Origin: Lentzea tibetensis
GTDB taxonomy: Bacteria; Actinomycetota; Actinomycetes; Mycobacteriales; Pseudonocardiaceae
NCBI RefSeq assembly: GCF_007845675.1
Contig: NZ_VOBR01000002.1
Location: 372,001-436,000 of the forward strand
DNA length: 64,000 bases
Reading direction: 5' to 3'
Each line of letters begins with the position of its first letter. Position 1 is the stretch's first letter. Below the pieces are notes generated by a model. The model was not told the DNA's origin and did not search any database. It worked only from the letters and a program-made list of their open reading frames with translations. Positions 8,129 to 51,111 of this stretch are shown piece after piece. The translations under genes were made by a program, and so were the position numbers.

Positions 8129-8241
8129 GTGGCGAACGGTGGCACCGGTAGCTGACACGGGGCTGGAACGGCGCTGCAACGCAAGCAATGCGGGCATCGG
8201 TATTGCGCGTGACGGTCTGGCCTCAGCTGACCATACTGCCG

Positions 8242-9185
8242 TGGTGCAGCACATTTCCTACCCCAAGATCCCGACGGCCGAGCAGTTCGGCGGGACGGCT
8301 GTCGGCGGTCCCTGGGTGGCCACGGAGAAGGTGCACGGCGCCCAGCTCGTGGTCGCCTGCGACGGCCGGGACGTGTCCGTCGGCAAGCGCAAGGCGTGGC
8401 TGCGCGGCGACGAGCCGTTCTTCGGCTGGCAACTGTTGCGCCGCAACCTCGAGCAGGCGGCGAAAATCGCCTTGTCGCACAGCGGCGGTGCGTCTGTGCG
8501 GGTTTTCGGCGAGCTGTACGGCGGCCGGTATCCCCATCCCGACGTGCCGCCGGCCTCGGGAGCGGCCGCGGTGCAGACGGGGATCTGGTACAGCCCGGAC
8601 GTCCGCTTCGCCCTCTTCGACGTGCTCAGCCACGACGATGCGGACGATCCCGGCGTCTTCCAGCCCTATGCGCACGTCGCGGCGATCGCCGATGCCGCTG
8701 GTCTCGACGTGGTGCCGTTGCTGGGCAGGGGGACCCGGTCGGCACTGGACGCCTTGCCGCAGCGGTTCCCCAGCCGGGTACCGCACGTGCTCGGCCTGCC
8801 CGAACTGCCGGACAACCTGGCGGAGGGAATCGTTCTGCGGCCCGACACCCCGTGCTCACCCGAGCAGCGTCCGATCATCAAGATGAAGATCGACGAGTTC
8901 GACGAGCAGCGCTTCGACCAAAGCCGTCCGTGGGACCCGCAGGTGAGACTTCCTCTCGCTGATCTGTGCCACATCGGCCGGGCGATGGTGAACCCGGCGC
9001 GGTTGGCGAGCGCGCGCTCGAAGGTCGGGCCCGCGGATCTCGACGAGCTCCTGGACGAGGTGATCCTCGACGTGATGGTGGATCTGTCCGAGGCGTTTCC
9101 GGCGGCGGTGGCGGTGCTCACCGACGAGGAGGAAGCCGAGCTGCACGACGTCATCCGCGCCGCAACGGCAGGAGATCAGGTCTGA
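8242..9185 (+). CDS. ATP-dependent RNA ligase, Rnl2 (T4 gp24.1/REL) family
   Basis: 314 residues from the GTG at 8242; the frame is open upstream but lacks ligase sequence. The nucleotidyltransferase motifs are in order: motif I TEKVHGAQ (Lys is adenylated by ATP), RKAWLRGDEPFFGWQ between motifs, motif III FGELYGG, motif IV EGIVLRP and motif V IIKMKI. The C-terminal ~100 residues are alpha-helical, like the Rnl2 C-domain. The expected activity is sealing of 3'-OH/5'-phosphate RNA nicks. It is followed after 39 bp by the LRR protein, suggesting one transcript. No Pnkp, Hen1 or RtcB gene is nearby. Confidence 0.88.
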
Positions 9186-9224
9186 ACCCGATCGACGCCG
9201 AACTGTCCCCTATGGTGTGCGGCC

Positions 9225-17527: not shown

Positions 17528-18064
17528 TCATGGTCGGCGAGGTTGGTCCGGCACGACCACGAGGCTGAAGAGGCGACGGACGCGACCGTCGTTCCGGTCG
17601 TTGCCGACGCGTGCGGTGACCGCGGTCTCGATCTCCTCGACCAGCGCGGTGAACTCCTCTTCGTTCAGCCACACCGCGGCCTGCCGGTAGACCACGCCGT
17701 CGGCGGTGGGATCGGCGCCCTCGCGGGCGAGGTAGCGGTCGAAATCTCCCATCAACGACGCCGTGAACGTGGTGAACGCCCGCTGGTGGTCCTCCCGCGT
17801 CATCGCCGCCCGCGCGGCGGGGTCGATCACCACTTCCTCGTCGCGCACCCGGTAGCTGCGTTCCACCGTGCCGCGCACCCGCTTCTCGTCCACCACCTCC
17901 AGCACGCCTGCCTCGGCCAGCACGGCGATGTGCCGGTACATCGTCGCCGGGGCGATGTCGGGCAGCCGGTCGCGCAGCTGTGAGGTGGTCAGCGGATCGG
18001 CGTCGAACAGCGCTTGCAGGATCCGCATCCGGACGGGGTGCAGGAGAAGGTCCGCGGTGGCCAT
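17528..18064 (-). CDS. ArsR-like winged-helix transcriptional regulator
   Basis: 178 residues from the ATG at 18064; an in-frame ATG at 18082 would add six residues. The N-terminal wHTH (LHPVRMRILQALFDADPLTT, PATMYRHIAVLAEAGVLEVV) matches the helix_turn_helix_20 group, and the C-terminal half is helical without obvious metal ligands. Its own promoter region carries the same phased 12-bp palindromes found in the ACAD/DUF2236 intergenic region. It is therefore probably autoregulated and a repressor of those genes. Confidence 0.85.
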   Translation of the reverse strand: MATADLLLHPVRMRILQALFDADPLTTSQLRDRLPDIAPATMYRHIAVLAEAGVLEVVDEKRVRGTVERSYRVRDEEVVIDPAARAAMTREDHQRAFTTFTASLMGDFDRYLAREGADPTADGVVYRQAAVWLNEEEFTALVEEIETAVTARVGNDRNDGRVRRLFSLVVVPDQPRRP

Positions 18065-18066
18065 GG

Positions 18067-18132
18067 ACCAATGTTCCCACATGCGATAACGTTCTCACAG
18101 TCGAGAACATTCGCAGCGACGAGAACGATCGA
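18067..18132. promoter_or_regulatory. Second array of 18-bp-phased operators (regulator promoter)
   Basis: GATAACGTTCTC (18085-18096), GAGAACATTCGC (18103-18114) and GAGAACGATCGA (18121-18132) start 18 bp apart. A fourth degenerate copy, ACCAATGTTCCC, is at 18067. The reverse complement of this block aligns over about 45 bp with the block at 16591-16635. Confidence 0.7.
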
Positions 18133-18141
18133 AGGTGGGAC

Positions 18142-18360
18142 ATGCGGGACGTCGGCATGACGTTCACCGCGGACGACGCCGCTGAAAGGGCGAGCATGTC
18201 TACCTCAACCCCTGTTCGTCAGCAGAGCGGCCTCGCGTCAACACGACGAAGGCGCTGCTGACCGTCACTTCGCCGGTGTCCAGGCCGTGATCGCCGTCCG
18301 GTCGACCGATCGGACGCGCACGCCCGGAGCATTTGTCTAGCGTCTGTATGTTTCCTGTAA
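18142..18360. other. Non-genic stretch with coding-like remnants upstream of the PKS gene
   Basis: A 40-codon ORF (18142-18264) has a good ribosome-binding site (GAAGGTGGG) but ends in an RRRRC tail and matches nothing I recognise. The next frame reads VNTTKALLTVTSPVSRP then stop. The minus strand has an equally protein-like tail (GEVTVSSAFVVLTRGRSADE). This looks like gene debris between the operator array and the PKS promoter. Confidence 0.35.
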
Positions 18361-18388
18361 CTGTACTTTTCTGGTAACTGAACAGGAG
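18357..18388 (+). promoter_or_regulatory. PKS leader region with a GTAACTG direct repeat and ribosome-binding site
   Basis: In an A+T-richer stretch, GTAACTG occurs at 18357-18363 and 18374-18380 (period 17 bp). AGGAG at 18384-18388 is the ribosome-binding site for the ATG at 18393. The repeats could bind an activator; SARP sites usually have an 11- or 22-bp period, so they are not a clear SARP box. Confidence 0.4.
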
Positions 18389-18392
18389 TCGG

Positions 18393-21300
18393 ATGAGCAA
18401 GGTTGCGGAGAGCCGGGCAATCGCGGTGGTCGGCATCGGCTGCCGCCTCCCCGGCGGCGTCACCGGCCCGGACAGCTTCTGGGATCTGCTGGTCGGTCAG
18501 GTCGACGCGGTCGGGCCGATCCCGCCAGGCCGATGGGACGTCGAGCGGCTGTTCGCCACCGACCACCGCGTGCCGGGCCGGATCACCATGCGCGAGGGCG
18601 GGTTCCTCGATCAGGTGGACGGGTTCGACGCCGGGTTCTTCGGCTTCTCCCGCCGGATCGCCGACCAGCTCGACCCGCAGCAGCGGCTGCTGCTCGAGAT
18701 CGCCTGGGAGGCCTGCGAGGACGCGGGCATCCCGGTGGAGGATCTCGCCGCCGCCCGCACCGGCGTGTTCGTCGGTGCCAGCAGTCAGGACTACGCGCAG
18801 ATCCAGACCACGGCCGGCGAGGGCGAGGCGATGGGCGCGCACGCCGCGACCGGCATGTCGACGAGCCTGCTCGCCAACCGGATCTCGCACGCCTTCGACC
18901 TGCGCGGCCCGAGCATGGTGGTCGACACGGCCTGCTCCTCCGCCCTGGTCGCGGTGCACGCGGCCTGCCAGAGCATCTGGGCAGGCGAGGTCGACGCCGC
19001 GCTGACCGGCGGGGTCAACCTCATCCTCACGCCGGGCTTCGGGGTGGCGCTGAGCCAGGCGGGCATGCTCGCCGCCGACGGCCGGTGCAAGGCGTTCTCG
19101 GCCGCCGCCGACGGCTTCGGCCGCGGCGAGGGGGCCGGGCTGGTCCTGCTCAAGCCGCTCGAGGACTCGCAGCGCGACCGGGACCGGATCTACGCCGTCA
19201 TCCGCGGCACCGCGGTCAACCAGGACGGGCACACCCCCGGCATCTCGGTGCCGAGCGGCCCGGCCCAGCAAGCCAACCTGGACACTGCGCTGCGTGCGGC
19301 CGGGGTCGGCCCGGCCGAGGTCGGCTACGTCGAGGCGCACGGCACCGGCACGCCGGTCGGCGACCCGATCGAGGCGGCCGCGCTGGCCGGCGTGCTCGGT
19401 GCGGGCCGGGCGGCCGACCGGCCGGTGCTGGTCGGCTCGGTCAAGACGAACATCGGCCACCTCGAGGCGGCGGCCGGGATCGCCGGCCTGATCAAGGCGG
19501 TGCTCGCGGTTCGCCATCGCCAGGTGCCTGCCAACCTGCACTTCGACGAGCCCAACCCCGGCATCGACTTCGGCGGCCTTGGCCTGTGCGTGCCGACCGC
19601 GACGACACCGTGGCCCGAGCACCTGCCGACCGCGGTGGCCAGCGTCAACTCGTTCGGCTTCGGCGGCACGAACGCCAACGTCGTGCTGGCCGAAGCCCCG
19701 GTGACCACCGCGTCGAGCCCCGCGGCAGCCGGAAACGGCCCGGCGCTGCTCACGTTCAGCGCCCGGAGCGAGACCGCGTTGCGGCGCCTGGCGGCCGCGT
19801 ACGCGGATCGGCTGGCAGGCCCCGGCGCGCCCGGCGGCGACCTCGAGAGCCTGGCCGCTCTCCTGGCCCGCAGGCGCAGCCACCACGGGCACCGGCTGGC
19901 CGTGGTGGCTGCTGACATCGCGGACGCCGCGACCAAGCTCCGGGCCTGCGCCGACGGCGAGACCCCGCCTGGAGTCTTCGCGGGCGCCCCCACCGGACGC
20001 GCGGCGGGCAAGCTCGCTTTCCTCTTCAACGGGCAGGGCCCGCAGTGGTGGGCGATGGCCCGCTCGCTGCTCGAGACCGACGGCGTGTTCCGGTCGACCG
20101 TGCTGCGCTGCGACGAGCTGGCCCGCCCGCACCTGGACTGGTCGATCCTGGACGCGCTCACCGCCGACGAGGCGGACAGCCGCGTCAACGAGACGTTCTG
20201 CCTCCAGCCCGCCGTCTTCGCGGTCCAGGTCGCGCTGGCCGAGCTGTGGCGCACGTGGGGCGTCACCCCGGACGGCGTGCTCGGCCACAGCGTCGGGGAG
20301 TATGCCGCCGCGTACGTCAGCGGCGCTCTCGACCTGGAGTCGGCCGTGCGCCTCATCTGCCGGCGGGCGCGGGTGCACTCCCGTGCCGACGGCAGCGGCG
20401 GGATGATGTTCGTCGCGCTCGGCGCCGAAGCGGCTCAGAAGGCGTGCGCCGAGACCGGGGGCCGGGTGTGCCTGGCGGCCGAGAACAGCCCGCGCGGCTC
20501 GACGCTGTCCGGCCCGCACGACGAGCTCGACCGGGTCGCCGCCCGGCTCGACCAGCGCGGCGTCTTCGCCCGCAAGCTGCGGGTCGCGTGCCCCTGCCAC
20601 AGCCCGCAGATGGACCCGCTGCGCGATGAGCTGGTCCACGAGCTCGCCGGCGTCGACGGCAAGCCGACCACGATCCCGTTGTACTCCAGCGTGCTCGCCC
20701 GCCGGGTCGACGGCCACGAGCTCGACACGGACTACTGGTGGCGCAACTTCCGGCAGCCGGTGCTCTTCGAGGGCGCGCTGCGGGCCGTGCTGGACGACGG
20801 CTACGACGCGTTCGTCGAGATCAGCCCGCACCCCGTGCTGCTCGGCGCGGTCCGCGAGATCCTCGACGACACCGGGCGCACGGCGGTCGCCGTCGGCTCA
20901 CTCGTGCGCGGCGGCGACGACCGGCTGCGGCTGCTCGAGTCGCTGGGCGCGCTCTACGCGGCCGGCCGGGCGATCGACTGGAAGCGCCGTCACCCCGGCC
21001 CGGTCCCGGCGGCGTCACTGCCCGGTCCGGTCTGGCTGCACGAGAACTACTGGAACGAGACCGCGGCCGCCCAGGCCCGGCGAACCGGCGGACAGTCGCA
21101 CCCGATGCTCAAGAGGGTCGACGCGGCCCGGCCGACCTGGGAGATCCGCTGGGACGACCACCGGCTCGCCTGGGTGCGTCAGCACGAGCTGTTCGGCGCG
21201 GTCATCGTGCCCGGCGCCGCGTACCTGGAGGCGGCGCTGGCCGCCGCCCGTGAGGAACTGGGCGGCCCGGCCGCACTCGAGTTCGTCGACTTCGAACGAT

Positions 21301-24300
21301 CGTGCGCGCTCCAGCCGGACGACGTGCAGATCGGCCGGATCGAGCTCGACCCCGAGGACGGCACCTTCGAGCTGCACCACCGCTCGTTCGCCGGCGACGT
21401 GTGGGCCCGCACCGTGCGCGGCCGGTACCACCCCGAGCCGGGGCGCGGCCGCGCCGTCGACCTCGCGGCCGTCCGGCAACGGTGCGCCACCTGGCACGCC
21501 CGCGACCAGGTGTACGAGGCGTTCACCGCGCGGGGCTACGTCTACGGCCCGGCGTTCCGCGGCATGACCGGGCTGCACACCGGCGAGGGCGAGGCCTTGG
21601 TCGAGCTCGCCGTCCCGGCCGAGCTCGCGGGCACGCTCGAGGACTACGTGCTGCACCCGGCACAGCTCGACGTCTGCATCCAGACCGCGGTGCTGGACGG
21701 CAACGCGCGGCGGCCGGGCGACCTGATCCCGGTCAACTACGTGCCGTCCGGAGTGGACGCCGTACGCGTGCATTGGAACGGCACGCCCGCCTACGCCCAC
21801 GTGCTGGTGCACACCCGTGACACGCACGCACTGCACGCCGACATCGCCGTGCTGGACGCCGGCGGCGCGGTGCTGGCCGAGCTGATCGGCATGCGCGGCA
21901 CCCCCGTGCCCCGGCCGGACAGCCCGGACGGCGCGGTCGGGGACCACTTCTACCGGATGCGCTGGCGCTCCTCGGCCCGCCCGGCGGCCAGTGCGGTCAC
22001 CCTCGGCGCCCAGGCCGCGGTGGCCGGCCTGCGCCCGCTCGACCCGGCCGCGGTCGGCGACAGCCCGCGGTACCGGGCCGACCTGCGCGAGCTCTGCGCC
22101 GCCTACCTGGCCGACTGCTTCGCCCGCTTCGGCGTCGAGCTCACCGCGGGCCGCACGATCACCGTCGACGGCCTCACCGGGCTGCTCCCGCTCTACCGGC
22201 CTGCGTTCGACGGCTTCCTGCGTTTCCTGGCCGACGCCGAGATCGTGACCTCCCGCGACGACGGCTCGTTCCAGGTGCTGCGCGACGTCGACGCCGACCA
22301 CCGCACGCGCTGGGCCCGGATGCTGACGACCTACCCGCACGCGCTCGGTGAGCTGCGCCTGCTCCGCAAGACCGCAGCTCACCTGCACGCGGTGGTGACC
22401 GGCGCGACCAATCCGCTCGAGCTGCTGTTCCCCGATGGCGACCACGGCGAGGCCGAGCGGTTCTTCCAGACCTCCAAGGCGGTCCGCTTCCACAACGAGG
22501 TCGTCCGGCAGGCACTGGAGTGGGTCGCGGGAACCGCCACGCTCGGCCGCACGCTGCGAATCCTCGAGGTCGGTGCCGGTACCGGCGGGCTGACCGCGGC
22601 CGTGCTCCCGGTGCTGCCGCCCGGACGCACCGAGTACGTCTTCACCGACATCTCGGCCGCGTTCACCGAGCGGGCAAGGGAACGGTTCCGCGACTTCCCG
22701 TTCGTGGAGCACCGGGTGCTCGACCTGGACCGCGACCCGGCCGGGCAGGGCTTCGACCCGCACTCGTTCGACGTCGTCCTCGCGTCCGACGTCGTGCACG
22801 CCACCCCCGAGCTGCGCCGCACGCTCGCCTCGTTACGCGGCCTGCTCGCTCCGGGCGGCCTGCTCGTGCTGGCCGAGGTGATGCCGGGCCGGATCTGGGC
22901 CGACCTGACGTTCGGCCTGACCAAGGGCTGGTGGTCGTTCACCGACCAGGACGTGCGCACCACCGGCCCGCTGCTCGACGGCGACCGCTGGGTCGACCTG
23001 CTCCGCGAGTGCGGATTCCCCGAGGTCGCCGCGGTCGAGGACCGGACCGGCAACGACACCGCCCCGCACACCGTCCTGTTCGCCACCGGCCCGTCGATCG
23101 CCGAGCCCGCCCCGCCGCAGCCACCCCCGGCCGCTGACTGGATCGTCCTCGGCGACGACCCGCAGCTCGCCGCACGCCTGGCCGCCCGAGTCCGCGAGCA
23201 CGGCGGCCGCGCCCTGATCGTCCCGGCCGGCGACCCGGTCCACTTCGGCGACCTGCGGCCGGCCCGGATCGTGCAGTTGTGGAGCACCGGCGACACCGAC
23301 GCCGCCGACCCCTGCCGGGCGATCCAGGACCGCTGCGTCGAGCTCGCCGACGCGATCCGGGTGTTCCGCGACGTCCCCGTAGAGCGGAGTCCCCGGCTCG
23401 TGCTGGTCTCCAAGGGCGCGCACAGCCTGCACGGCGAGCCGGTCCGGCTCGGCGGCGCCTCCGCGTGGGGGATCGGCATGGCGGCTCGGCTCGAGCTGCC
23501 GCACACCCGTTGCGTGATGATCGACCTGGACGCGGCGGGCGACGACGACCTCGACCAGCTCTGGGCGCAGCTGTGCAGTGACGACGACGAGTACGAGATC
23601 GCGCTGCGCTCGGGAGAGCGCTACGTGCGCCGCCTGGTCCGGCACCCGGCCACCGCGGTCCTCGACCGGGTGGACGCCCGCACCCTGCCGGAGGACCACG
23701 CGCACGCACTGGTGACCGACCACCCCGGACAACTCGACGAGCTGCGCTGGGCGGCCGAGCCGCGCCGGGCACCCGGCGCGGGAGAGGTCGAGATCGAGGT
23801 CCGCGCGGTCGGCCTCAACTTCCGCGACGTGCTGGTCGCGCTGGGCCGGATGCCGTCAACGGCAGGAGACCGCGGGTTGCGGATGGGCGCCGAGTGCGCC
23901 GGCCTGGTCACCCGGATCGGCCAGGACGTCACCGGGCTTCGGGTCGGCGACGAGGTGGTCGCGGTCGACGCGACGATGGCGACGCTCGCCTCGCACGCCA
24001 CCGTGAACGCGACCTGCGTGGCGCTCAAGCCCGCCCGGCTCTCCACAACCCAGGCGGCCACGGTGCCGCTGGTCTTCCTCACCGCCGCGATCGGGCTGGG
24101 CAGGCTCGCCGCGCTGCGTCCCGGCGAGCGCGTGCTCATCCACTCCGGCGCAGGCGGGGTCGGGCTGGCCGCGATCCAGCTCGCCCACGAGCTCGGGGCC
24201 GAGGTGCTGGCCACCGCGGGCAGTCCCGAGAAGCGGGAGCTGCTGCGCTCGCTCGGCGTCGCGCACGTCTTCGACTCGCGCTCGCTCGCGTTCGCCGACG

Positions 24301-27300
24301 AGGTGCGGGCGGCCACCGGCGGCGCCGGGGTCGACGTCGTGCTCAGCGCGGTCGGCAGCGAGGCCACCGCGCGCAGCATCGCCTGCCTGGCCCCGTACGG
24401 CCGGTTCGTCGAGATCGGGCAGCGCGACCTGCGGGCCGACCGGCGGCTCGGGCTGCGGCCGTTCACCCGCAACCTGTCCTACTCGAGCTTCGACCTCCAG
24501 CAGATGATCGCCCAGCGGCCCGCCCTGGTCGCCGAGGAGCTCACGGCGCTGCTGGCCAGGTTCGAGTCCGGCGCGCTGCGGCCGCTGCCGCACCGGGTCT
24601 ACCACCCGTCGCAGACCACGGCCGCGTTCCGGCACCTCGCGGCGGGTGAGCACATCGGCAAGCTGGTGCTGGCGATGAGCGAGCACGACGTGCCGGTGAC
24701 CCCGCTCCCGCCGGCCGGCCCTGAGCGGTTCGCAGGCACCTGGCTGGTCACCGGCGGCCTCGCGGGCATCGGACTCGAACTGGCCTGCCGGCTCGCCGAC
24801 GCCGGGGTCCGGCACCTGGTGCTGGTCGGCCGCTCCGGAGTGCCGGGGCCGGAGGCAGGGGAAGCGGTCGAACGGCTGCGCGAGGGCGGGGTGCAGGTGC
24901 TGGCCGAGGCGGTCGACGTGACCTCGGCGTCCCAGGTGGACACGCTGATCGCCCGGATCGACCGGGAGCTGCCGCCGCTGCGCGGCGTCCTGCACTGCGC
25001 GATGGTCATCGACGACGACCCCTTCACGGAGCTCGACGAGCGCCGGTTCCGCGAGGTGCTCGGGCCCAAGGTGTGCGGCACCTGGAACCTCGACCGGGCC
25101 ACCGCCGACCACGACCTCGACGCGTTCGTGCTGTTCTCGTCGACCACCTCCCTGCTCGGCAACGCCGGACAGGCCAACTACGCCGCCGCCAACGCGTTCC
25201 TCGACCAGTTCGCCGACTACCGCGCGGCGCTGGGCAGGCCGGTGCTGACCGTCAACTGGGGCGCCGTCCACGGCGCCGGATACCTGACCCGCAACGAGAA
25301 CGCGGCCCGCGCGCTGGCCGCCTCCGGGGTCGGCCACCTCACCACCGACCAGGTTTTCGAGGCGCTGCGGCTGCTCTGGCGCGGGTCCTCGCCCCGCGTC
25401 GGCGTCACCAAGGTGGACTTCGGCCGGATCATCCGGCACTTCGGCCTCGACGCCGGCCACGAGCCCCGGTACGCCGAGGTGCTGGCGGGCGGTGGGGTGG
25501 CCGGACCGGCCGATGTGGACGGTCGCTCCATCGTGCAGCGCCTGCGGGCGCTGGACCGCGACGCCGGGGCCGAGCTGCTCCAGGCCCGGATCAAGGCCCG
25601 GTGCGCGGCCCTGCTCGGTGTGCCCGAGCAGGAGTTCCCGCCGGACGCGCCGCTCACCAGGATGCACATGGACTCGCTGCTCGCGGTCGAGATCGGCTCG
25701 TGGATCGAGCGGGAGCTCGGTGTCACCGTCACCACGATGACGATGATGCGCGGGCCGAGCGTGGCCGACCTGACTGCACTCGTGCTCGACGGGCTCGACC
25801 TCGAACCGGCACCCGAGGCCGTCGCGGAGCCGGTCCGGGCCCCGTTGCCGGAACCGGCGGCGCCCCGGATCGAGGACGAGCCGGTCCCGCTCACCGAACT
25901 CCAGGAGGCCTACCTGGTCGGGCGGTTCGACGGGCTCGGCCTGGGCGGGGTGGCCAGCCACGCGTACGGCGAGTACTCGATGGCCGAGCTCGACCCGGAC
26001 CGGGCGGTCGCGGCCTGGGACGAGATCGTGCGGCGGCACGCGGCGCTGCGGATGGTCGCCACCCGAGGCGGCAGGCAGTGCGAGATCACACCCACCGCTG
26101 CCTGGCAGGTGCAGGTCGACGACCTGCGCGAGGACCAGGACGCCGCGGCGAAGGTCGCGGCCACCCGTGCCCGGATGTCGTGCCAGGTGCTGGACGCCTA
26201 CAAGGGACCGTTGTTCGAGCTGCGGCTCACGCTGCTGCCGGACGAGGTGCGCATCCACGTCAGCTTCGACCTGCTCATGCTGGACGCGCAGAGCATCTTC
26301 GTGGTGATCCACGAGTGGGGCGTGCGCTACCGGGGCCTCGCCCTGCCGCCGACCGCGCCCGCCGGGGCCTTCCTGGCCTTCGCCCGTGATCGGCGGCGCA
26401 GGCTCGACGAGATCAACAACGGCCCGGACCGCGCCCTGTTGGCGCGACTGGCCGAAGAGCTGCCACCACCGCCCGCGCTGCCGCTGGCGCTCGACCCCGA
26501 GACCGTGCGCCGTCCCGAGTTCACCCGGCGCACGGCCGTGCTCGACCAGGCCGACTGGAAGCGGCTGCGCGACGCCGCGGCGGCCCGAGGGATCACCGTG
26601 TCGTCGTTGTTCGGCGCCGCGTTCACCTGCGTGGTCGGCCGGTTCAGCGGTGACGCGCCGTTCACACTCGGGGTGCCCGCCTTCGACGGCCCGCAGCTCG
26701 GCCGCTCCGCACCGGCGATCGGCGAGTTCACCAGCGTCCTGCTGGTCGCGGCCCGGCCAGGACCGGGTGCGTTCGAGGACTACCTGCGGGCGTTCCAGAC
26801 CTCGATGCTGGTCGCGCTCGAGCACCGCGAGCTGGGCAGCGTGACCGTGCGGCGGGAGCGGTCGAAGTCGCAGGGGCGGATGCGGATGCCCGAGTCGGTG
26901 GCCCCGGTCGTCTTCACCAGCATGCTGGACAAGGACATCGGCAAGATGGACTGGCTGGGCCGCCGCTTGTACGGGTTGTCGCAGACCCCGCAGGTGTGGC
27001 TCGACCACCAGGCCATGCGCTGGGGCGACGACGCGGTGCTGACCTGGGACTCGGTGGACGCGCTGTTCCCGGCCGGGCTGCTCGACGAGATGTTCGACGC
27101 GTACCTGTCGCTGCTGCGCGGTCTGGCCCGCCACCGCGACTGGACCGCCGACCCCGAGACGCTGAGCAGGCCCGAGCCCCGGCCGGACCCGGTCCGCGTC
27201 GCGGAGTCGCCGCGGCTGCACGACCTGGTGCTGGGCCGGGCCGCGGCGAGCCCGGACGCGATCGCGATCCGCACTGACGAGCGCTCACTGTCCTATCAGG

Positions 27301-29630
27301 ACGTCGCCGGTGCGGCCGGGAAGGTGGCGGCGGCGCTGACCGCGGCCGGCCTGCGTCCCGGCGACCTGGTCGCGGTCGGGGTGCGCCCCGGCTGGGAGCA
27401 GGCTCCGGCCGTGCTCGGTGTGGTGCAGGCCGGAGGTGTCTACGTCCCGGTCGATCCGGCCGCGCCGACCGGGCGGATCGAGCTGTTGCTGCGCGACAGC
27501 ACGGCCAGGTTCGCGCTCACCACCCGTGCCACGGCGGGCAACTGGCCGGCAGGCGTCCGGCTGATCGTGCTCGAGGACGTCTGGACCGACTGCCCGGCAA
27601 CGATCGACGATCCCGGCACCACGAGCGGCGACCTGGCGTACCTGATCTACACCTCGGGCTCGACGGGGCAGCCCAAGGGCGTCGCGATGGAGCACGGCGC
27701 CGCGGTCAACACGATCACCGACATCAACGAGCGGTTCACCGTGGGGCACGCCGACCGGCTGCTCGCGCTCACCCCGCTCACGTTCGACCTCTCGGTGTAC
27801 GACGTCTTCGGCACCCTGTCGGCCGGGGCGAGTCTGGTGGTGCCGGGGGACGGGCACCGCTCCGACCCGAAGCACTGGGCCGGCCTGATGGCCCGGCACG
27901 GGGTGACGATGTGGAACTCGGTGCCCTCCCTGCTGCGACTGCTCACCGAGACCATGGGCGAGGACCTGGACTGGTCGGCCCAGCTCAGCCTGATCATGCT
28001 GAGCGGCGACTGGATCCCGGTCGACCTGGCCCGCCGGCTGCGTGAACGGCTCCCGCACACCCGGCTGATCAGCCTGGGCGGGGCGACCGAGGCCGCGATC
28101 TGGTCCGTGCTGCACGACGTCGACAAGGTCGACCCGGCGTGGCACAGCATCCCGTACGGCACGGCGATGCGCGGCCAGGGCGCGGTCGTGCTGGACGAGC
28201 GGCTCGCACCGGTGCCGGCAGGCACCCCTGGCCCGCTGTTCCTGTCCGGCGCCGGCCTGGCCCGCGGCTACTGGGGTGATGAGGAACGGACCCGGCGCAG
28301 CTTCCCGATCCGGCCCGCCACCGGTGAACGGCTCTACCGCACAGGCGACCTGGCCCAGGCAGGTCCGGACGGTGTGCTCGAACTACTCGGTCGGGAGGAC
28401 CAGCAGATGAAGATCCAGGGCAACCGGATCGAACCCGGCGAGATCGAGAGCGCACTGGTGCGGCTCGCCGGGGTCCGCGACGCGGTGGTCGGGGCCGAGG
28501 GCGCCCGTGACCAGGACCGGCGGCTCGTCGCGGTGGTCCGGCCCTGCCCAGGCTCGGCGCTCGACCCGGTCGGGCTGCGCGCCGAGCTGACCCACGAGCT
28601 GCCCCGCTACCTGGTACCGGACCTGATCCGGGTGGTCGACGACTACCCGCTCACGGCGAACGGCAAGGTCGACCGGGGAGTTTTGTTCGGCGCAGCGCCG
28701 ACGCCGGTGGGGGAGACCGACGACGTCACCGCCCAGGTGTTGTCGGTGCTGTCCCAGGTGCTCGCCGAGTCCGGGCTGGATGACGGTGACCTCTCCCAGA
28801 TCGACCTCGGCGCGGCTGGGCTGACCTCGATGGACCTGATCCGCATCGCCAACGGCCTGTCGTCCGAGTTCGGCTCCCACCCCAGTCTCGAAGTGCTCTA
28901 CGAGATCCGCTCGGTCGACGAGCTGGTCCGGTTCTACGCGGGGGACGCCGCGGCGCCGGACCGGCTCGAGCCACAGCAGTTGCTGCTCGACGTGGACGCC
29001 AGAGAGGACTTCAAGGAGCAGGCCCGCAGCCGGCACGCCTTGTCGTCGTCCGGCATCGGTCTCCCGTCCGGCGCGGGCCCGGATCGCCGCAGGCGCAGCG
29101 TCCGCGAGTTCAGCGGATCCAGGGTCCGGTTGGACGCGTTCGGCGGCCTGCTGGACCACCTGCGGCAGTGGACCGAGGACGGCACCACCCGCCGCGCCTG
29201 GGGATCGGCCGCCGGCGTCTACCCGGTCGACGTGTACGTCCAGGTGCACAGCGCCGGGGTGAGCGCGCTCGCCGAGGGCGTCTACCGCTACGACCCTGCG
29301 CAGCACCAGCTCGTGCCACTCAGCGACGAGCCGCTGGTCCAGCCTGGGCACCACCGCACGAGCGGCAACCGGGAGGCGCACGAGACCGCGGGGTTCTCGC
29401 TCTTCCTGGTCGGCGACACGGCCGCACTGGACCAGCTCTACGGCGACATGGCCGAGCCGTTCTGCCTGCTGGAGGCGGGCGCGATGGCACACCTGCTGAC
29501 CACTGCGGCGGTCGGTCTCGGCATCGACACGTGCCAGATCGGTCTGCTCGACTTCCGCGACGCCAAGGCCGCGCTCGGTCTCGGCGACAGCGAGAAGCTC
29601 CTCTGCACGATTCTCGGCGGTGCCCGGTGA
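18393..29630 (+). CDS. Hybrid PKS-NRPS megasynthase: KS-AT-DH-cMT-ER-KR-ACP-Cy-A(Cys)-PCP-Ox
   Basis: 3745 residues. KS 8-435 (Cys181, His316, His356). AT ~540-850 (GHSVG, Ser633; CPCHSPQM in place of YASH/HAFH). DH ~903-1170 (HELFGAVIVP with His931; Asp1093). C-methyltransferase ~1200-1590 (LEVGAGTGG at 1391). ER ~1780-2095 (HSGAGGVGLAAIQ at ~1917). KR ~2113-2330 (GGLAGIG, Tyr2263). ACP Ser2428. Cyclization domain ~2498-2930, with PLTELQEAYLVGR and D2626xxxxD2631 replacing HHxxxDG. A ~2966-3430, with pocket residues D3132 L3133 Y3136 N3175 M3202 S3204 L3228 I3236, close to the Cys code DLYNLSLI. PCP Ser3479. FMN-dependent Ox ~3530-3745 (SVREFSGSRV). Predicted product: an alpha-methylated reduced acyl chain condensed with Cys, cyclised to thiazoline and oxidised to thiazole. 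No loading module or thioesterase is visible. Confidence 0.95.
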   Translation: MSKVAESRAIAVVGIGCRLPGGVTGPDSFWDLLVGQVDAVGPIPPGRWDVERLFATDHRVPGRITMREGGFLDQVDGFDAGFFGFSRRIADQLDPQQRLLLEIAWEACEDAGIPVEDLAAARTGVFVGASSQDYAQIQTTAGEGEAMGAHAATGMSTSLLANRISHAFDLRGPSMVVDTACSSALVAVHAACQSIWAGEVDAALTGGVNLILTPGFGVALSQAGMLAADGRCKAFSAAADGFGRGEGAGLVLLKPLEDSQRDRDRIYAVIRGTAVNQDGHTPGISVPSGPAQQANLDTALRAAGVGPAEVGYVEAHGTGTPVGDPIEAAALAGVLGAGRAADRPVLVGSVKTNIGHLEAAAGIAGLIKAVLAVRHRQVPANLHFDEPNPGIDFGGLGLCVPTATTPWPEHLPTAVASVNSFGFGGTNANVVLAEAPVTTASSPAAAGNGPALLTFSARSETALRRLAAAYADRLAGPGAPGGDLESLAALLARRRSHHGHRLAVVAADIADAATKLRACADGETPPGVFAGAPTGRAAGKLAFLFNGQGPQWWAMARSLLETDGVFRSTVLRCDELARPHLDWSILDALTADEADSRVNETFCLQPAVFAVQVALAELWRTWGVTPDGVLGHSVGEYAAAYVSGALDLESAVRLICRRARVHSRADGSGGMMFVALGAEAAQKACAETGGRVCLAAENSPRGSTLSGPHDELDRVAARLDQRGVFARKLRVACPCHSPQMDPLRDELVHELAGVDGKPTTIPLYSSVLARRVDGHELDTDYWWRNFRQPVLFEGALRAVLDDGYDAFVEISPHPVLLGAVREILDDTGRTAVAVGSLVRGGDDRLRLLESLGALYAAGRAIDWKRRHPGPVPAASLPGPVWLHENYWNETAAAQARRTGGQSHPMLKRVDAARPTWEIRWDDHRLAWVRQHELFGAVIVPGAAYLEAALAAAREELGGPAALEFVDFERSCALQPDDVQIGRIELDPEDGTFELHHRSFAGDVWARTVRGRYHPEPGRGRAVDLAAVRQRCATWHARDQVYEAFTARGYVYGPAFRGMTGLHTGEGEALVELAVPAELAGTLEDYVLHPAQLDVCIQTAVLDGNARRPGDLIPVNYVPSGVDAVRVHWNGTPAYAHVLVHTRDTHALHADIAVLDAGGAVLAELIGMRGTPVPRPDSPDGAVGDHFYRMRWRSSARPAASAVTLGAQAAVAGLRPLDPAAVGDSPRYRADLRELCAAYLADCFARFGVELTAGRTITVDGLTGLLPLYRPAFDGFLRFLADAEIVTSRDDGSFQVLRDVDADHRTRWARMLTTYPHALGELRLLRKTAAHLHAVVTGATNPLELLFPDGDHGEAERFFQTSKAVRFHNEVVRQALEWVAGTATLGRTLRILEVGAGTGGLTAAVLPVLPPGRTEYVFTDISAAFTERARERFRDFPFVEHRVLDLDRDPAGQGFDPHSFDVVLASDVVHATPELRRTLASLRGLLAPGGLLVLAEVMPGRIWADLTFGLTKGWWSFTDQDVRTTGPLLDGDRWVDLLRECGFPEVAAVEDRTGNDTAPHTVLFATGPSIAEPAPPQPPPAADWIVLGDDPQLAARLAARVREHGGRALIVPAGDPVHFGDLRPARIVQLWSTGDTDAADPCRAIQDRCVELADAIRVFRDVPVERSPRLVLVSKGAHSLHGEPVRLGGASAWGIGMAARLELPHTRCVMIDLDAAGDDDLDQLWAQLCSDDDEYEIALRSGERYVRRLVRHPATAVLDRVDARTLPEDHAHALVTDHPGQLDELRWAAEPRRAPGAGEVEIEVRAVGLNFRDVLVALGRMPSTAGDRGLRMGAECAGLVTRIGQDVTGLRVGDEVVAVDATMATLASHATVNATCVALKPARLSTTQAATVPLVFLTAAIGLGRLAALRPGERVLIHSGAGGVGLAAIQLAHELGAEVLATAGSPEKRELLRSLGVAHVFDSRSLAFADEVRAATGGAGVDVVLSAVGSEATARSIACLAPYGRFVEIGQRDLRADRRLGLRPFTRNLSYSSFDLQQMIAQRPALVAEELTALLARFESGALRPLPHRVYHPSQTTAAFRHLAAGEHIGKLVLAMSEHDVPVTPLPPAGPERFAGTWLVTGGLAGIGLELACRLADAGVRHLVLVGRSGVPGPEAGEAVERLREGGVQVLAEAVDVTSASQVDTLIARIDRELPPLRGVLHCAMVIDDDPFTELDERRFREVLGPKVCGTWNLDRATADHDLDAFVLFSSTTSLLGNAGQANYAAANAFLDQFADYRAALGRPVLTVNWGAVHGAGYLTRNENAARALAASGVGHLTTDQVFEALRLLWRGSSPRVGVTKVDFGRIIRHFGLDAGHEPRYAEVLAGGGVAGPADVDGRSIVQRLRALDRDAGAELLQARIKARCAALLGVPEQEFPPDAPLTRMHMDSLLAVEIGSWIERELGVTVTTMTMMRGPSVADLTALVLDGLDLEPAPEAVAEPVRAPLPEPAAPRIEDEPVPLTELQEAYLVGRFDGLGLGGVASHAYGEYSMAELDPDRAVAAWDEIVRRHAALRMVATRGGRQCEITPTAAWQVQVDDLREDQDAAAKVAATRARMSCQVLDAYKGPLFELRLTLLPDEVRIHVSFDLLMLDAQSIFVVIHEWGVRYRGLALPPTAPAGAFLAFARDRRRRLDEINNGPDRALLARLAEELPPPPALPLALDPETVRRPEFTRRTAVLDQADWKRLRDAAAARGITVSSLFGAAFTCVVGRFSGDAPFTLGVPAFDGPQLGRSAPAIGEFTSVLLVAARPGPGAFEDYLRAFQTSMLVALEHRELGSVTVRRERSKSQGRMRMPESVAPVVFTSMLDKDIGKMDWLGRRLYGLSQTPQVWLDHQAMRWGDDAVLTWDSVDALFPAGLLDEMFDAYLSLLRGLARHRDWTADPETLSRPEPRPDPVRVAESPRLHDLVLGRAAASPDAIAIRTDERSLSYQDVAGAAGKVAAALTAAGLRPGDLVAVGVRPGWEQAPAVLGVVQAGGVYVPVDPAAPTGRIELLLRDSTARFALTTRATAGNWPAGVRLIVLEDVWTDCPATIDDPGTTSGDLAYLIYTSGSTGQPKGVAMEHGAAVNTITDINERFTVGHADRLLALTPLTFDLSVYDVFGTLSAGASLVVPGDGHRSDPKHWAGLMARHGVTMWNSVPSLLRLLTETMGEDLDWSAQLSLIMLSGDWIPVDLARRLRERLPHTRLISLGGATEAAIWSVLHDVDKVDPAWHSIPYGTAMRGQGAVVLDERLAPVPAGTPGPLFLSGAGLARGYWGDEERTRRSFPIRPATGERLYRTGDLAQAGPDGVLELLGREDQQMKIQGNRIEPGEIESALVRLAGVRDAVVGAEGARDQDRRLVAVVRPCPGSALDPVGLRAELTHELPRYLVPDLIRVVDDYPLTANGKVDRGVLFGAAPTPVGETDDVTAQVLSVLSQVLAESGLDDGDLSQIDLGAAGLTSMDLIRIANGLSSEFGSHPSLEVLYEIRSVDELVRFYAGDAAAPDRLEPQQLLLDVDAREDFKEQARSRHALSSSGIGLPSGAGPDRRRRSVREFSGSRVRLDAFGGLLDHLRQWTEDGTTRRAWGSAAGVYPVDVYVQVHSAGVSALAEGVYRYDPAQHQLVPLSDEPLVQPGHHRTSGNREAHETAGFSLFLVGDTAALDQLYGDMAEPFCLLEAGAMAHLLTTAAVGLGIDTCQIGLLDFRDAKAALGLGDSEKLLCTILGGAR

Positions 29631-30946
29631 GCGCCGTCCGGCTCGGCGTGACCCGCAACCAGCGGGACCTGTGGGCGGCCGAGTGGCGCGCCACGGACCG
29701 GCGGATGCACACGGTCGCCCAGCACGTCGAGATCCGGGGGCCGCTCGAGCTGACGGCGTTCGAGGACGCGATGCGACAGGTGCTCGCGGAGACCGAGGCC
29801 GTGCGGGCCCGGTTCCGCGACGACGGCGGCGAGGTGATCCAGGAGATCCTGCCGTCGGTCCGGTGGCGGCTCGCGGTCATCGATCTCTCCGGACACTCGG
29901 ACCCCGCCGCGGCTTTCGACGAGTGGGCCGAGGCCGACCAGCGGGCGCCGATCCTCGCCAGCGACTTCCCGCTGTTCTCCACGGCGTTGCTGCGCCTCGG
30001 CTCCGACCACCACCGCTGGAGTCTGCGGTTCCACCACATGGCGATGGACGCGTTCAGCGCGGCGCTGCTGCTGCGCCGGGTCGCCGACGTCTACGCCGCC
30101 CGCAGCACGGGCGGCGACGCAGGGCCCAGCCCGTTCCGCCCGATCGCCGCGCTGCACGAGGAACAGCGCGAATACGAGGAGTCCGACCGGTTCGCCGCCG
30201 ACCGCGCGTTCTGGCGTGAACGGCTGACCGGGCTGCCGGGCCCGGTGCGGATCACCCCGAGCGATGTGGCCGACAGCCGCGTGCTCGCGGGCGTCGGACT
30301 CGCCCCGCCGCCGGCCGGTCAGATCTGCCGGACCGCGGACGCCGCCGGCACCGCCTGGCCCGACGTGGTGCTGGCGGTGGTGGCCGCGCACGCCGCGGCG
30401 GAGAGCGGTGCCAGTGACGTCGTGATGACGGTTCCGGTCTCGAACCGCACCACCGCGGTGTCCCGCAGCGTGCCGACCAACACGGCCAACCGGATCATGC
30501 TCGCGGTGCCGGTGCGTCCGGAGGCGAGCTTCCACGAGCTGCTCACCGCGGTGACCGCGGACAACCGGGAGGCGGTGCGGCACCAGATCTTCCCGCACAG
30601 CGTGGTCATGGCCGATCTGGGCGAGCGGGCGGCCCCGCACCGCTCGTCCGGCCCGTGGGTCAACATCATGCCGTTCGGCGCCGACCTGGCCCTGCCCGGC
30701 TGCACGACCTCGGTGCACCGCGTCCAGACCGGGCCGGTGGGCGATCTGGAAGTGGCCGTGTACGGCGACCCCGACGCGGCCAGGATGCGCGTCAACGTCC
30801 TCATGGGACTGCGCCCCGAGCACCACGCGCTCCTGCTGGCGGCCGAACGCCGGCTGATGGACCGGTTCGCCGCGGTCACCGCCGATCCCCACCGCCCACT
30901 GGCGGAACTCCCGGAGTTCGCCGCGGCCTGGGCTCCCGCGCGATGA
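29627..30946 (+). CDS. Free-standing NRPS condensation-domain protein
   Basis: 439 residues; its GTG overlaps the megasynthase stop (GTGA), so it is translationally coupled. Condensation fold with HHMAMDA at residues 136-142. His137 and Asp141 of HHxxxDG are kept, while the final Gly is Ala. Further C motifs: AALHEEQREYEESDRFAADR, VVMTVPVSNRT and VPTNTANRIMLAVPV. There is no A or carrier domain. With no thioesterase in the operon, it probably moves the PCP-bound thiazolyl chain onto an amine or alcohol, acting as a release or coupling enzyme. That role is inference. Confidence 0.87.
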   Translation: MSAVRLGVTRNQRDLWAAEWRATDRRMHTVAQHVEIRGPLELTAFEDAMRQVLAETEAVRARFRDDGGEVIQEILPSVRWRLAVIDLSGHSDPAAAFDEWAEADQRAPILASDFPLFSTALLRLGSDHHRWSLRFHHMAMDAFSAALLLRRVADVYAARSTGGDAGPSPFRPIAALHEEQREYEESDRFAADRAFWRERLTGLPGPVRITPSDVADSRVLAGVGLAPPPAGQICRTADAAGTAWPDVVLAVVAAHAAAESGASDVVMTVPVSNRTTAVSRSVPTNTANRIMLAVPVRPEASFHELLTAVTADNREAVRHQIFPHSVVMADLGERAAPHRSSGPWVNIMPFGADLALPGCTTSVHRVQTGPVGDLEVAVYGDPDAARMRVNVLMGLRPEHHALLLAAERRLMDRFAAVTADPHRPLAELPEFAAAWAPAR

Positions 30947-31932
30947 GCGGCGCGATCACAGTGGACGTCCCGGCCGTGCTCGCGGTCGACGAGCACGAGG
31001 CGCGGCAGCTGGCCGAGCTGGCCCGCCGGCTGCGCGACCGGCCGCGTGACGACCCGCCGGCCTTCTGCGCGGCCGCCGCCGCGCTGGCCGGGAACGTGCC
31101 GCCCCGGCTGGTCGACGCGGTGCGCGACTTCGGCCGGGACGGCCGGTCGGGTGCCCTGGTCCTGGCCGGGCTGCCCACCGGTCCGGTGCCGTGCACCCCG
31201 GACGGCCACGACCGGCACGTGGGGGAGCGCTGCCAGCTGGTGCGGATCCAGGCGATCCTCGCCGAGCTGCTCGGCCACCTCATCGCGTACGAGGCCGAGG
31301 GCGAGGGCGCGCTGTTCCAGGACATCGTGCCGAGCCGCCCGGCCGCCCGCACCCAGACCAGCCTCAGCTCGGCGGTCGAGCTGGAGCTGCACACCGAGCA
31401 GGCGTTCAGCGCGTTGCGCCCCGACCACCTGAGCATGGCCTGCCTGCGCGGCGACCCGGACGCACGCACCTACCTGCTGACCGCCCGGCAGGTGACCGCG
31501 GCGCTGCGCCCGGACGAGGTCGCCGAGCTGCGCCTGCCGCGCTGGGTGACCCAGGTCGACGAGTCGTTCCGGGCCGCGTCGGCCCGGTTCCTCGACGGCG
31601 ACGTCCGCGGCCCGATGCCGATCCTGTCGGGACCGGATGACGACCCGCGGATCGTGCTCGACCAGGACCTGATGCGCGGCGTCGACCCGGCGGCGCAGCG
31701 CCTGCTCGACCGGGTGATCGAGATCTACCTGCGTGACCGGCGGCACCACGCGCTGGCCGCCGGTGAGGTCCTGTTCCTGGACAACCAGCGGGTGGTGCAC
31801 GGGCGGTCGGCGTTCCGGCCCCGGTTCGACGGCACCGACCGGTTGGTCGTCCGCTGCTTCGTCACCCGGGACCTGCGGCAGTCGCAACACGCGAGGGACG
31901 GCTCGCGGACGGTGGCGAGCCGGTTCAGCTGA
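30943..31932 (+). CDS. Fe(II)/2-oxoglutarate oxygenase, clavaminate synthase/VioC-AsnO-like
   Basis: 329 residues, ATGA overlap with the preceding gene. Facial-triad residues are His150 and Glu152 in ELHTEQAF and His286 in NQRVVHGRSAF. Arg304 in TDRLVVRCF is placed to bind the 2-oxoglutarate carboxylate. The use of Glu instead of Asp in HxE is characteristic of the clavaminate synthase / arginine-asparagine beta-hydroxylase group. Within this operon it probably hydroxylates or desaturates either an amino acid building block or the finished chain. Confidence 0.88.
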   Translation: MSGAITVDVPAVLAVDEHEARQLAELARRLRDRPRDDPPAFCAAAAALAGNVPPRLVDAVRDFGRDGRSGALVLAGLPTGPVPCTPDGHDRHVGERCQLVRIQAILAELLGHLIAYEAEGEGALFQDIVPSRPAARTQTSLSSAVELELHTEQAFSALRPDHLSMACLRGDPDARTYLLTARQVTAALRPDEVAELRLPRWVTQVDESFRAASARFLDGDVRGPMPILSGPDDDPRIVLDQDLMRGVDPAAQRLLDRVIEIYLRDRRHHALAAGEVLFLDNQRVVHGRSAFRPRFDGTDRLVVRCFVTRDLRQSQHARDGSRTVASRFS

Positions 31933-31939
31933 CCGATCG

Positions 31940-32773
31940 CTACGCGAGGAGGGAGTCGAGCAGCCGGAGGCGCTCGGCGGAACTCGTTCCCGGCTCGGCG
32001 CCGTGGAAGATCAGCCGCTGGCCGGGGTCGTCCGGCAGCCGCAGGGTTTCCTCGTTGAGCGTCAGGTGACCGACGACCGGGTGGTTGTACTCGCGGACCG
32101 AGTGCAGGCACTCGCTGACCGGGTGGGCGGCCCAGATCCGGGTGAACTCGGTGCTCTTGATGCTCAGCTCGCCGATCAGCTCCGCCAGCAGGCGATCGTC
32201 GGGCTGGTCGCTCGAAGCCATGCGGAGGTAGGACGCGGCCTTGCGCGCCTCGGACTCCCAGTGCACGAGCAGGTCGCGCATCGCGGGATCGAGGAACATC
32301 ATCTTCGCCATGTTGGGCCGCTGGTCGGGCGCGAGGCCCAGCAGCGCGAACCCGAGCCGGTTGCCACCGAGCAGGTCCATCCGCCGGCCGACGATGATCG
32401 TCGCCTGCTCGGACGTGCTCTCCGCCAGTGCCAGCACCGACTCGCGGACCCGTTCCGGGCCCGTTCTGCGGCGCACGATCTGCGTCGGCCTGGCCAGTCG
32501 CGCGAGGTGCACCCGCTCGTCAGGATCGAGTTGGAGCGCGTTGGCGATCGACTCGAGCACCGAGTGGGACATCTGGTGACTCTCGCCCTGCTCGATGCGG
32601 GTGTAGTAGTTCACGCTGACGCCGGCCAGCAGCGCGACCTCCTCGCGACGGAGCCCCGGTACCCGACGCGGTGACCCGTACGTGGCCACTCCGCTCTCCT
32701 GCGGGGTGAGTGCCGCGCGGCGCGTCCGCAGGAAGTCTCCGAGCTCCTGCGACGTGTTCCTGTGCTCGCCCAT
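31940..32773 (-). CDS. XRE-family regulator with MmyB-like ligand domain
   Basis: 277 residues. HTH at ~12-75 (LGDFLRTRRAAL ... RVPGLRREEVALLAGVSVNY, YYTRIEQGES) followed by an MmyB-like PAS domain with a C-terminal NHPVVGHLTLNEETLRLPDD. It is convergent with the biosynthetic operon (7 bp gap) and divergent from the NmrA-like gene at 32905. Regulators of this group frequently sit beside the reductase they control, so the NmrA/SDR pair is the likelier target. Confidence 0.9.
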   Translation of the reverse strand: MGEHRNTSQELGDFLRTRRAALTPQESGVATYGSPRRVPGLRREEVALLAGVSVNYYTRIEQGESHQMSHSVLESIANALQLDPDERVHLARLARPTQIVRRRTGPERVRESVLALAESTSEQATIIVGRRMDLLGGNRLGFALLGLAPDQRPNMAKMMFLDPAMRDLLVHWESEARKAASYLRMASSDQPDDRLLAELIGELSIKSTEFTRIWAAHPVSECLHSVREYNHPVVGHLTLNEETLRLPDDPGQRLIFHGAEPGTSSAERLRLLDSLLA

Positions 32774-32904
32774 GATCCCACTCTCGCCGATCGCCGGACC
32801 CCGTGCCTTCCCCTGCCATGGGTACCCACGACAGGGGAAGGCGCGGTCGTGCTCACCGATGTCAACGTGGCGGTACCCGAAACCAATCCGACCAGGAGTT
32901 GACG

Positions 32905-50305: not shown

Positions 50306-51073
50306 TCACCGCCTGGTCGAGTACGCCCGCGACGCGGCAGCGGCGGCGAGCCGGACGGCGGGCCCGATCCGGTCCGCCCGCACCAGCTGCGTGGGGCCGG
50401 TGACGGACAGCGCGGCCACGACGTCACCGAGCGGGCCGAAGATCGGGGCGGCCACGCAGCTCACGCCGATGTTGCCCTCCTCGCGGTCGACCGCCCAGCC
50501 GCGGTGCGGGATCGCCGCCAGCTCGCGCAGCACGGCGACCGAGGTGGTGAGGGTGCGCGGGGTGCGCGGCGTGAGACCCGCGGCGATGACGGCCTCGACG
50601 GTCGGCGCGTCCGAGTACGCCAGAATCGCGCGGCCCAGCGCGGAGCAGTGCGCCGGGATCATCCCGCCGACCTGCGACAGCATCGGCATCGCCCGGTGGC
50701 CGGTGATCTTCTCCACGACCAGGACCTGGGTCCCGTCGAGCACCCCGAGCTGCACCGTGGTCTTGGCCGCGCTGTGCAGGTCGTGCAGGAACGGCAGCAC
50801 CGCCTCGCGGAGCTCGTGCCGCACGGGCGCCAGCCCCGAGAGCTCGAACAGCCGGTTGCCGATGCGGTACCGGTCCTTCGGTTTGTCCAGCCAGCCGAGC
50901 TGGATCATCTTGTCCGCGGTGCGGTGGGTGGTCGACCGGGGCAGGCCGCACCGCGCGACCAGCGTCGCGAGGGTGAGCTCGCGATGCGTGGCGTCGAACG
51001 CGCCGAGGATCGCCGCGGCTCGGTCGAGGCCGCCCACGGCGTCCGAAGTGCGATCCCGCTCAGCGGGACTCAT
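50306..51073 (-). CDS. IclR-family regulator of the catabolic locus
   Basis: 255 residues from the ATG at 51073 (a GTG at 51085 would add four). N-terminal wHTH (GGLDRAAAILGAFDATHREL, RCGLPRSTTHRTADKMIQLG) and a C-terminal effector domain (GRAILAYSD, PHRGWAVDREEGNIGVSCVA, SVTGPTQLV). IclR regulators often control aromatic degradation with the substrate as effector. Only 38 bp separate it from the divergent SDR gene, so the two promoters must overlap coding sequence or be leaderless. Confidence 0.93.
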   Translation of the reverse strand: MSPAERDRTSDAVGGLDRAAAILGAFDATHRELTLATLVARCGLPRSTTHRTADKMIQLGWLDKPKDRYRIGNRLFELSGLAPVRHELREAVLPFLHDLHSAAKTTVQLGVLDGTQVLVVEKITGHRAMPMLSQVGGMIPAHCSALGRAILAYSDAPTVEAVIAAGLTPRTPRTLTTSVAVLRELAAIPHRGWAVDREEGNIGVSCVAAPIFGPLGDVVAALSVTGPTQLVRADRIGPAVRLAAAAASRAYSTRR

Positions 51074-51111
51074 CGTTGGCTCCACGAGTCCATGCGTCTC
51101 AGGCTAACCCG

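Follow-up and report, generated by a model that had tools for sequence, protein, structure and literature searches.

The window analyzed in this study is a 64,000-nucleotide stretch of the Lentzea tibetensis genome (contig NZ_VOBR01000002.1, positions 372,001 to 436,000), part of a 485-kb contig (end at 485320) of a 9.36-Mb genome. Three genes lie head to tail on the forward strand at window positions 18393-31932: a megasynthase joining a polyketide synthase (PKS) module to a nonribosomal peptide synthetase (NRPS) module, a free-standing condensation (C) protein, and a 2-oxoglutarate oxygenase. The megasynthase gene (gene 1, 18393..29630, +) encodes 3745 aa without an internal stop, in the domain order KS-AT-DH-MT-ER-KR-ACP-Cy-A-PCP-Ox as assigned by Pfam and motifs; its total codon-position score of 1003 is the highest in the window (next 175), which is partly an effect of its length. 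Gene 2 (29627..30946, +; 439 aa; Pfam Condensation, E 1.4e-39) encodes the C protein, which carries the motif HHMAMDA and is the proposed amide-forming release enzyme, and gene 3 (30943..31932, +; 329 aa; Pfam TauD, E 1.8e-8) encodes an Fe/2-oxoglutarate oxygenase, a homologue of KDO1 and the proposed acceptor-making enzyme. The junctions read from the sequence are 4-bp overlaps, GTGA at 29627-29630 and ATGA at 30943-30946, bearing out the three-gene operon with 4-bp overlaps described in an earlier note on this DNA; additionally, AGGAG lies upstream of the gene 1 start.

Pfam matches within gene 1 comprise KS, AT, PS-DH, methyltransferase, zinc ADH (ER), KR, two PP-binding, Condensation (Cy), AMP-binding and Nitroreductase (Ox), and the catalytic motifs generally known for these domains are present in KS, AT, DH, MT, ER, KR, ACP, Cy and PCP. 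All of the domains lie on the forward strand. The ketosynthase (KS, 18414..19697; Pfam and motifs) retains its active-site Cys and both His residues, and the lack of a loading module that had been reported holds, with no domain ahead of the KS. The acyltransferase (AT, 20019..20945; Pfam and the motif GHSVGEY) has an uncertain extender, for which malonyl is suggested because of the methyltransferase domain. The remaining PKS domains, each supported by Pfam and motifs, are a dehydratase (DH, 21099..21920; HxxxGxxxxP and HPAxLD), a C-methyltransferase (MT, 22380..23132, approximate boundaries; S-adenosylmethionine motif), an enoylreductase (ER, 23775..24671), a ketoreductase (KR, 24735..25271) and an acyl carrier protein (ACP, 25587..25784; DSL serine).

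Among chains of solved structure, the best match of the PKS half is mycocerosic acid synthase (MAS, 1110 bits), with the alignment spanning residues 9-1200 and 1665-2298 of the megasynthase and hence leaving the MT region outside. MAS has no thioesterase, and PapA5, which belongs to the C superfamily, forms an ester product. According to PMC12370991, MAS works iteratively, and after four rounds its chain is handed to phthiocerol by PapA5; the title of a reference cited there indicates that MAS uses methylmalonyl. The gene 1 product resembles the MAS and PapA5 pair (PMC12370991) in its single fully reducing module (KS, AT, DH, ER, KR, ACP), in having neither a loading module nor a thioesterase domain, and in a chain that would be handed on by a separate protein, whereas it differs from MAS in its C-methyltransferase domain and in its fusion to Cy-A-PCP-Ox; it may therefore work like MAS but is not classed as MAS. 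A KS search of 298 genomes of the family returned, besides the window and the genome G307 discussed below, four matches at E 1e-170 (62-67% identical), all belonging to single-module PKSs of 2425-2527 aa with start codons chosen by hand (L064, L065, L066 and L067). These four align with the PKS half at 52-54% identity along the whole length, MT included, which makes the PKS half a relative of enzymes that stand alone as single modules; the full domain set (KS, AT, DH, MT, ER, KR, ACP) was confirmed by Pfam for the L064 enzyme. A scan of the PKS neighbours at L064, L066 and L067 confirmed a nearby AMP-ligase gene at all three and an alpha/beta-hydrolase gene at two. This relationship, like that to MAS, speaks for an iterating module primed in the absence of a loading module, and proves neither point; on balance, we lean slightly towards an iterative module.

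The NRPS half consists of a heterocyclisation domain (Cy, 25890..27197, approximate boundaries; matches to solved chains and the motif FDLLMLD), an adenylation domain (A, 27237..28667; Pfam and solved-chain alignment), a peptidyl carrier protein (PCP, 28695..28937, approximate boundaries; Pfam and the GLTS serine) and a thiazoline oxidase of the nitroreductase family (Ox, 29085..29612; Pfam). The Condensation match of gene 1 carries the DxxxxD motif of Cy domains, and 6lta (535 bits), dihydroaeruginoic acid synthetase (506), BmdB (470), 7emy and 7ly7 are among the solved chains that match across both Cy and A. Dihydroaeruginoic acid synthetase (PchE) takes cysteine. The A pocket of the megasynthase aligned to this synthetase reads, by eye, DLYNMSLIWK, a code that probably specifies cysteine, and the same code is kept in both orthologues described below. 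The best solved match of the Ox domain is BmdC of bacillamide (79 bits), which oxidises a thiazoline while it is tethered, according to PMC8795117. The Cy-A-PCP arrangement together with a thiazoline oxidase, as in bacillamide-type systems, is present here, with a probable cysteine code. Pfam, motifs and solved matches thus agree with the previously described domain order, a reducing PKS with C-methylation followed by a thiazole-forming NRPS module, and thiazole formation is very probably part of the chemistry, the best-supported step of those considered.

A search of the genome with PF00975 alone as the thioesterase family gave 24 matches, three of which lie on the contig of the operon (275565-276245, 304444-304782 and 305231-305860, with the PKS starting at 390393 in contig coordinates); gene 1 and the closest of them, which lies upstream, are 84.5 kb apart, and the downstream stretch as far as the contig end (485320) has none. 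A PF00975 thioesterase just outside the window is thereby ruled out, in agreement with the claim that none lies nearby. Among the 48 window open reading frames (ORFs) scanned with Pfam, a subset of all ORFs that includes some chance frames, the sole alpha/beta hydrolase (51821-53212) belongs to an aromatic catabolism cluster 20 kb away. The C protein retains HHxxxD and matches the solved chains of the RzmA starter C domain (181 bits), CDA synthetase I (155), EntF (134), ObiF1 (124) and VibH (82), with Txo1 (75 bits) close behind VibH, then Txo2 (62), and with much weaker matches to TycC (53) and SrfA-C (31). The strongest of these are C domains with acyl donors. The identities of the solved chains 7c1k and VibH follow PMC7804268. 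A stand-alone C protein with the motif histidine, as in VibH and OaaC, is therefore what the window encodes, and VibH, SchH (PMC10587159) and OaaC (PMC13142362) are all precedents for a free-standing C protein with a free amine as substrate. The comparison differs in that the proposed acceptor here is an amino acid and the proposed donor a thiazole acyl chain.

The oxygenase had previously been placed only in the 2-oxoglutarate family, an assignment that the TauD match upholds; what had gone unseen is its homology to a lysine 3-hydroxylase, which suggests an acceptor. Its best solved match is KDO1, an L-lysine 3-hydroxylase of the clavaminate synthase-like family (304.7 bits, E 8.1e-90; 163 of 322 aligned residues identical), far ahead of an asparagine oxygenase (106.8 bits) and arginine hydroxylases (about 84 bits). 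All ten residues named for KDO1 in PMC6224419 (Ser168, His178, Glu180, Thr204, Asp234, Ser236, Asp268, His314, Arg328 and Arg332) are kept, as S140, H150, E152, T176, D206, S208, D240, H286, R300 and R304, so that the iron-, 2-oxoglutarate- and lysine-binding residues of KDO1 are all found here; the difference from KDO1 is that this oxygenase sits in an operon with a PKS-NRPS. From this match, the acceptor is likely 3-hydroxy-L-lysine, an identity that we hold to be slightly favoured. Oxygenase matches at E 1e-30 occur in 73 of 391 family genomes (own included), the best other homologues being those of G054, G235 and G243 (53-54%) and G186 (41-42%).

Orthologues of the megasynthase are rare. 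In a Cy search of the 391 family genomes, 159 matched at E 1e-40 and only G186 (886 bits, 88%) and G307 (883 bits, 89%) stood out, the next best match being 253 bits and 41%. A phylum sample of 396 genomes contained no further Cy match at E 1e-80 (this draw and a class draw of 355 genomes are both samples), a scan of genome contigs with two seven-residue patterns from the Cy alignment returned Kutzneria only, and viral contigs gave nothing. G307 is Kutzneria sp. CA-103260, of the same family as the window genome, Kutzneria being placed in Pseudonocardiaceae in PMC10232511. The G307 and G186 loci resemble the window in a full-length orthologous megasynthase (85.7% and 84.1% identity to the window for the two orthologues; 83.0% between them) followed by a C protein. 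They differ in that this C protein is 52% identical to that of the window and has LPMVMD in place of HHMAMD, with both motif histidines lost, in the Gfo/Idh/MocA protein and MDR dehydrogenase genes that follow it (the MDR family being checked in G307), and in a divergent MFS transporter gene upstream. In G307, 4-bp overlaps join megasynthase to C gene and C gene to Gfo gene; in G186, about 110 bp separate the megasynthase stop from the start of the homologous C-gene stretch. The two C proteins of these loci (L048:17178-18671 and L050:10090-11397), both without the histidines, are yet 76% identical to each other. The Gfo/Idh/MocA protein was considered as a thiazolinyl imide reductase and rejected, as no imide reductase model is among its NCBIfam matches, which are to inositol, UDP-GlcNAc and (in G186) xylose dehydrogenase models, all far below cut-offs.

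In a sample of 100 genomes that did not contain G186 or G307, 36 matched the C protein (own included), with a best identity outside of 38%; in a plasmid search that listed 20 of 406 records, the best identities among those listed were 30-36%. A scan of genome contigs with the C protein found nothing, the scan being an insensitive one because it missed the 52% identical C protein of a Kutzneria genome in the same collection. G042 encodes a free-standing C protein of 425 aa that is 34% identical; the 38-kb stretch examined there contains nothing matching the megasynthase.

Combined, these results suggest a pathway in which the operon makes an alkyl-thiazole amide by bacillamide-like chemistry on a MAS-like chain, with release onto 3-hydroxylysine and with iteration left open, a reading to which we give even odds as a whole. 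An acyl thioester would prime the KS in the absence of a loading module, and the MAS-like module would extend it with malonyl for one or several rounds, C-methylating and fully reducing the chain to a methyl-branched acyl-ACP. Cy would then condense this chain with PCP-bound cysteine and cyclise it to a thiazoline, which Ox would oxidise to a 2-alkyl-thiazole-4-carbonyl-S-PCP. In parallel, the gene 3 oxygenase would hydroxylate free L-lysine at C3, and the C protein would use one of the amino groups of the resulting 3-hydroxy-L-lysine to form an amide with the thiazole carbonyl, freeing the product; with amide formation by the C protein as the releasing step, a thioesterase would be unnecessary. 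The predicted product is a 2-(methyl-branched alkyl)thiazole-4-carboxamide of 3-hydroxy-L-lysine. What the sequence itself shows is the gene order, the motifs, the family placements and the conservation of the lysine pocket, and from that basis we infer the priming, the use of cysteine, iteration, the identity of the acceptor, the reacting amine and release by the C protein.

The closest known logic is that of bacillamide (BmdA, BmdB and BmdC), in which, according to PMC8795117, the work is divided among three proteins: one enzyme prepares the free amine, an NRPS forms a thiazoline from cysteine, oxidation takes place on the tethered ring, and the C domain at the end joins it to the amine. The operon in the window shares this three-protein logic and the Cy-A and Ox sequence relatives, and its lysine hydroxylase is proposed to prepare the acceptor as BmdA prepares tryptamine. 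It differs in having a reducing PKS module in place of the first NRPS module of bacillamide, in an Ox fused in cis with the C domain as a separate protein (the reverse of the bacillamide-type C in cis), and in an amine enzyme that is a lysine hydroxylase homologue rather than a tryptophan decarboxylase, no decarboxylase being present in the operon.

The earlier note had left release to the small C protein, and this remains the best reading and a probable one, supported by the retained HHxxxD and by the bacillamide and PapA5 precedents. Hydrolytic release by a thioesterase encoded elsewhere, with the C protein loading or editing the chain or docking tailoring enzymes, is improbable: the distant PF00975 genes could supply such an enzyme, and the C proteins of both orthologous clusters have lost the two motif histidines, but the motif in the window is intact and off-loading by a C domain (bacillamide) or by PapA5 (MAS) has precedent. 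The lack of a loading domain and of a nearby thioesterase could also point to a split pathway, in which the starter comes from, or the thiazole chain passes on to, a PKS or NRPS encoded at a different site in the genome, and other Cy-like matches do occur in the genome (e.g., C22:278136-279467 and C13:209116-210384). Such a pathway is very unlikely, given that the closest PKS kin found are likewise single-module enzymes and that tblastn at E 1e-10 found no second megasynthase-like stretch near either orthologue, in regions of 48 and 54 kb.

Several points weigh against this pathway. In the 20-kb stretches around the KDO homologues of G054, G235, G243 and G186, tblastn at E 1e-5 matched neither the megasynthase nor the C protein, so hydroxylases of this family also occur apart from the pathway, and the hydroxylase could instead act on the tethered or released product. 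OaaC-type C proteins are said in PMC13142362 to exclude both proteogenic and nonproteogenic amino acids, so an amino-acid acceptor would not be routine. Both orthologous clusters are without a hydroxylase and have lost the C histidines, and amide release therefore cannot be assumed family-wide. Additionally, iteration is not readable from the sequence, and a structure model of the C protein (two sequences; mean pLDDT 39.7) was too poor to use and was discarded. The C protein might accordingly release the thiazole chain onto another amine or alcohol, with the oxygenase hydroxylating the product or a free amino acid used elsewhere. The divergence of the C protein, only 52% identical to the nearest kin found, and the exclusion of amino acids by OaaC-type proteins are in keeping with this alternative, but the retention of the ten KDO1-site residues and the overlap of the oxygenase start with the C gene stop argue against it, and we consider another acceptor unlikely, though less so than a remote thioesterase.

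The differing C proteins behind conserved megasynthases were compared at silent sites, measured as the identity of third bases in fourfold-type codons wherever the residue is shared, with chance given by codons randomised within amino acids. Megasynthase silent-site identity is 71-75% in all three pairs vs. 49-50% by chance. For the C gene, G186 and G307 share 70% (chance 46%), whereas the window shares only 51.5% with G186 (chance 49.3, sd 3.3) and 55.7% with G307 (chance 49.4, sd 3.4). In 100-codon steps from the last megasynthase step onwards, the values run 68 to 54, 54, 44 and 58 for the window and G186; 68 to 63 (30 codons only), 56, 56 and 59 for the window and G307; and 78 to 80, 75, 68 and 69 for G186 and G307. 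The break in silent-site identity is at or near the boundary of the megasynthase and C genes, and is less sharp for G307. The low C protein identity (52%) was not put down to accelerated protein evolution, an explanation rejected since silent sites are also near chance; the window C gene appears to have split from those of the orthologues well before the megasynthases did. This drop to near chance in the C gene is suggestive of an exchange of the release gene between lineages, in a comparison of three clusters only, and an ancient pair of C paralogues with differential loss is a possible alternative. If exchange is the explanation, the megasynthase could tentatively be viewed as a conserved lipo-thiazole platform taking different off-loading cassettes, each a free-standing C protein with acceptor-making enzymes, swapped between lineages at the gene boundary as a natural diversification of the release step; we regard this view as plausible, at somewhat less than even odds.

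The interpretation in the earlier note was therefore supported in part, the orthologous megasynthases with other downstream genes having gone unseen in it. Its statement that the combination was unrecognised stands, as no paper on the three-gene combination was found in the open-access literature, judged by titles and abstract openings, and the word 'thiazole' is absent from the main text of the comparative Kutzneria genome paper (PMC10232511). If the proposed pathway is correct, the operon would represent a very small bacterial PKS-NRPS route to a thiazole lipid, with three proteins covering every step, and the pathway could therefore be rebuilt in vitro. The relatedness break that follows the megasynthase gene suggests a natural site for changing release enzymes in trans, which is relevant to assembly-line engineering, and the lysine 3-hydroxylase homologue gains a candidate biosynthetic setting.

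A larger cluster was rejected, as tblastn at E 1e-5 matched none of the three core proteins in the 40 kb before (L035, L033) and 20 kb after (L034) the window. Delimiting the cluster by within-genus synteny failed: the upstream MPAB gene was matched in none of the 24 other genus genomes at E 1e-60, and the downstream XRE regulator had matches of only about 45-50% identity in all 24. The claimed absence of a regulator is correct for the operon itself, but regulatory genes flank it on both sides: a divergent ArsR-type helix-turn-helix gene upstream (17528-18082, -) and a convergent MmyB-like XRE regulator gene (31940-32773, -) that ends 7 bp past gene 3. A sigma-70 promoter scan of 17900-32800 gave 0 sites vs. 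0.4 expected by chance. The genome has one PF01648 match, for a phosphopantetheinyl transferase. By eye, the stretch between the ArsR-type gene and the operon (18083-18140) contains partly inverted GTTCTC / GAGAAC repeats that may form an operator. Elsewhere in the window, an RNA ligase domain protein (PF09414) adjoins a 751-aa leucine-rich-repeat protein at 8022-11480, and the aromatic meta-cleavage catabolic cluster at 50306-58841 comprises an IclR regulator, an alpha/beta hydrolase, a LigB dioxygenase, an FAA hydrolase, an acetaldehyde dehydrogenase, a DmpG-type aldolase and an FAD monooxygenase.

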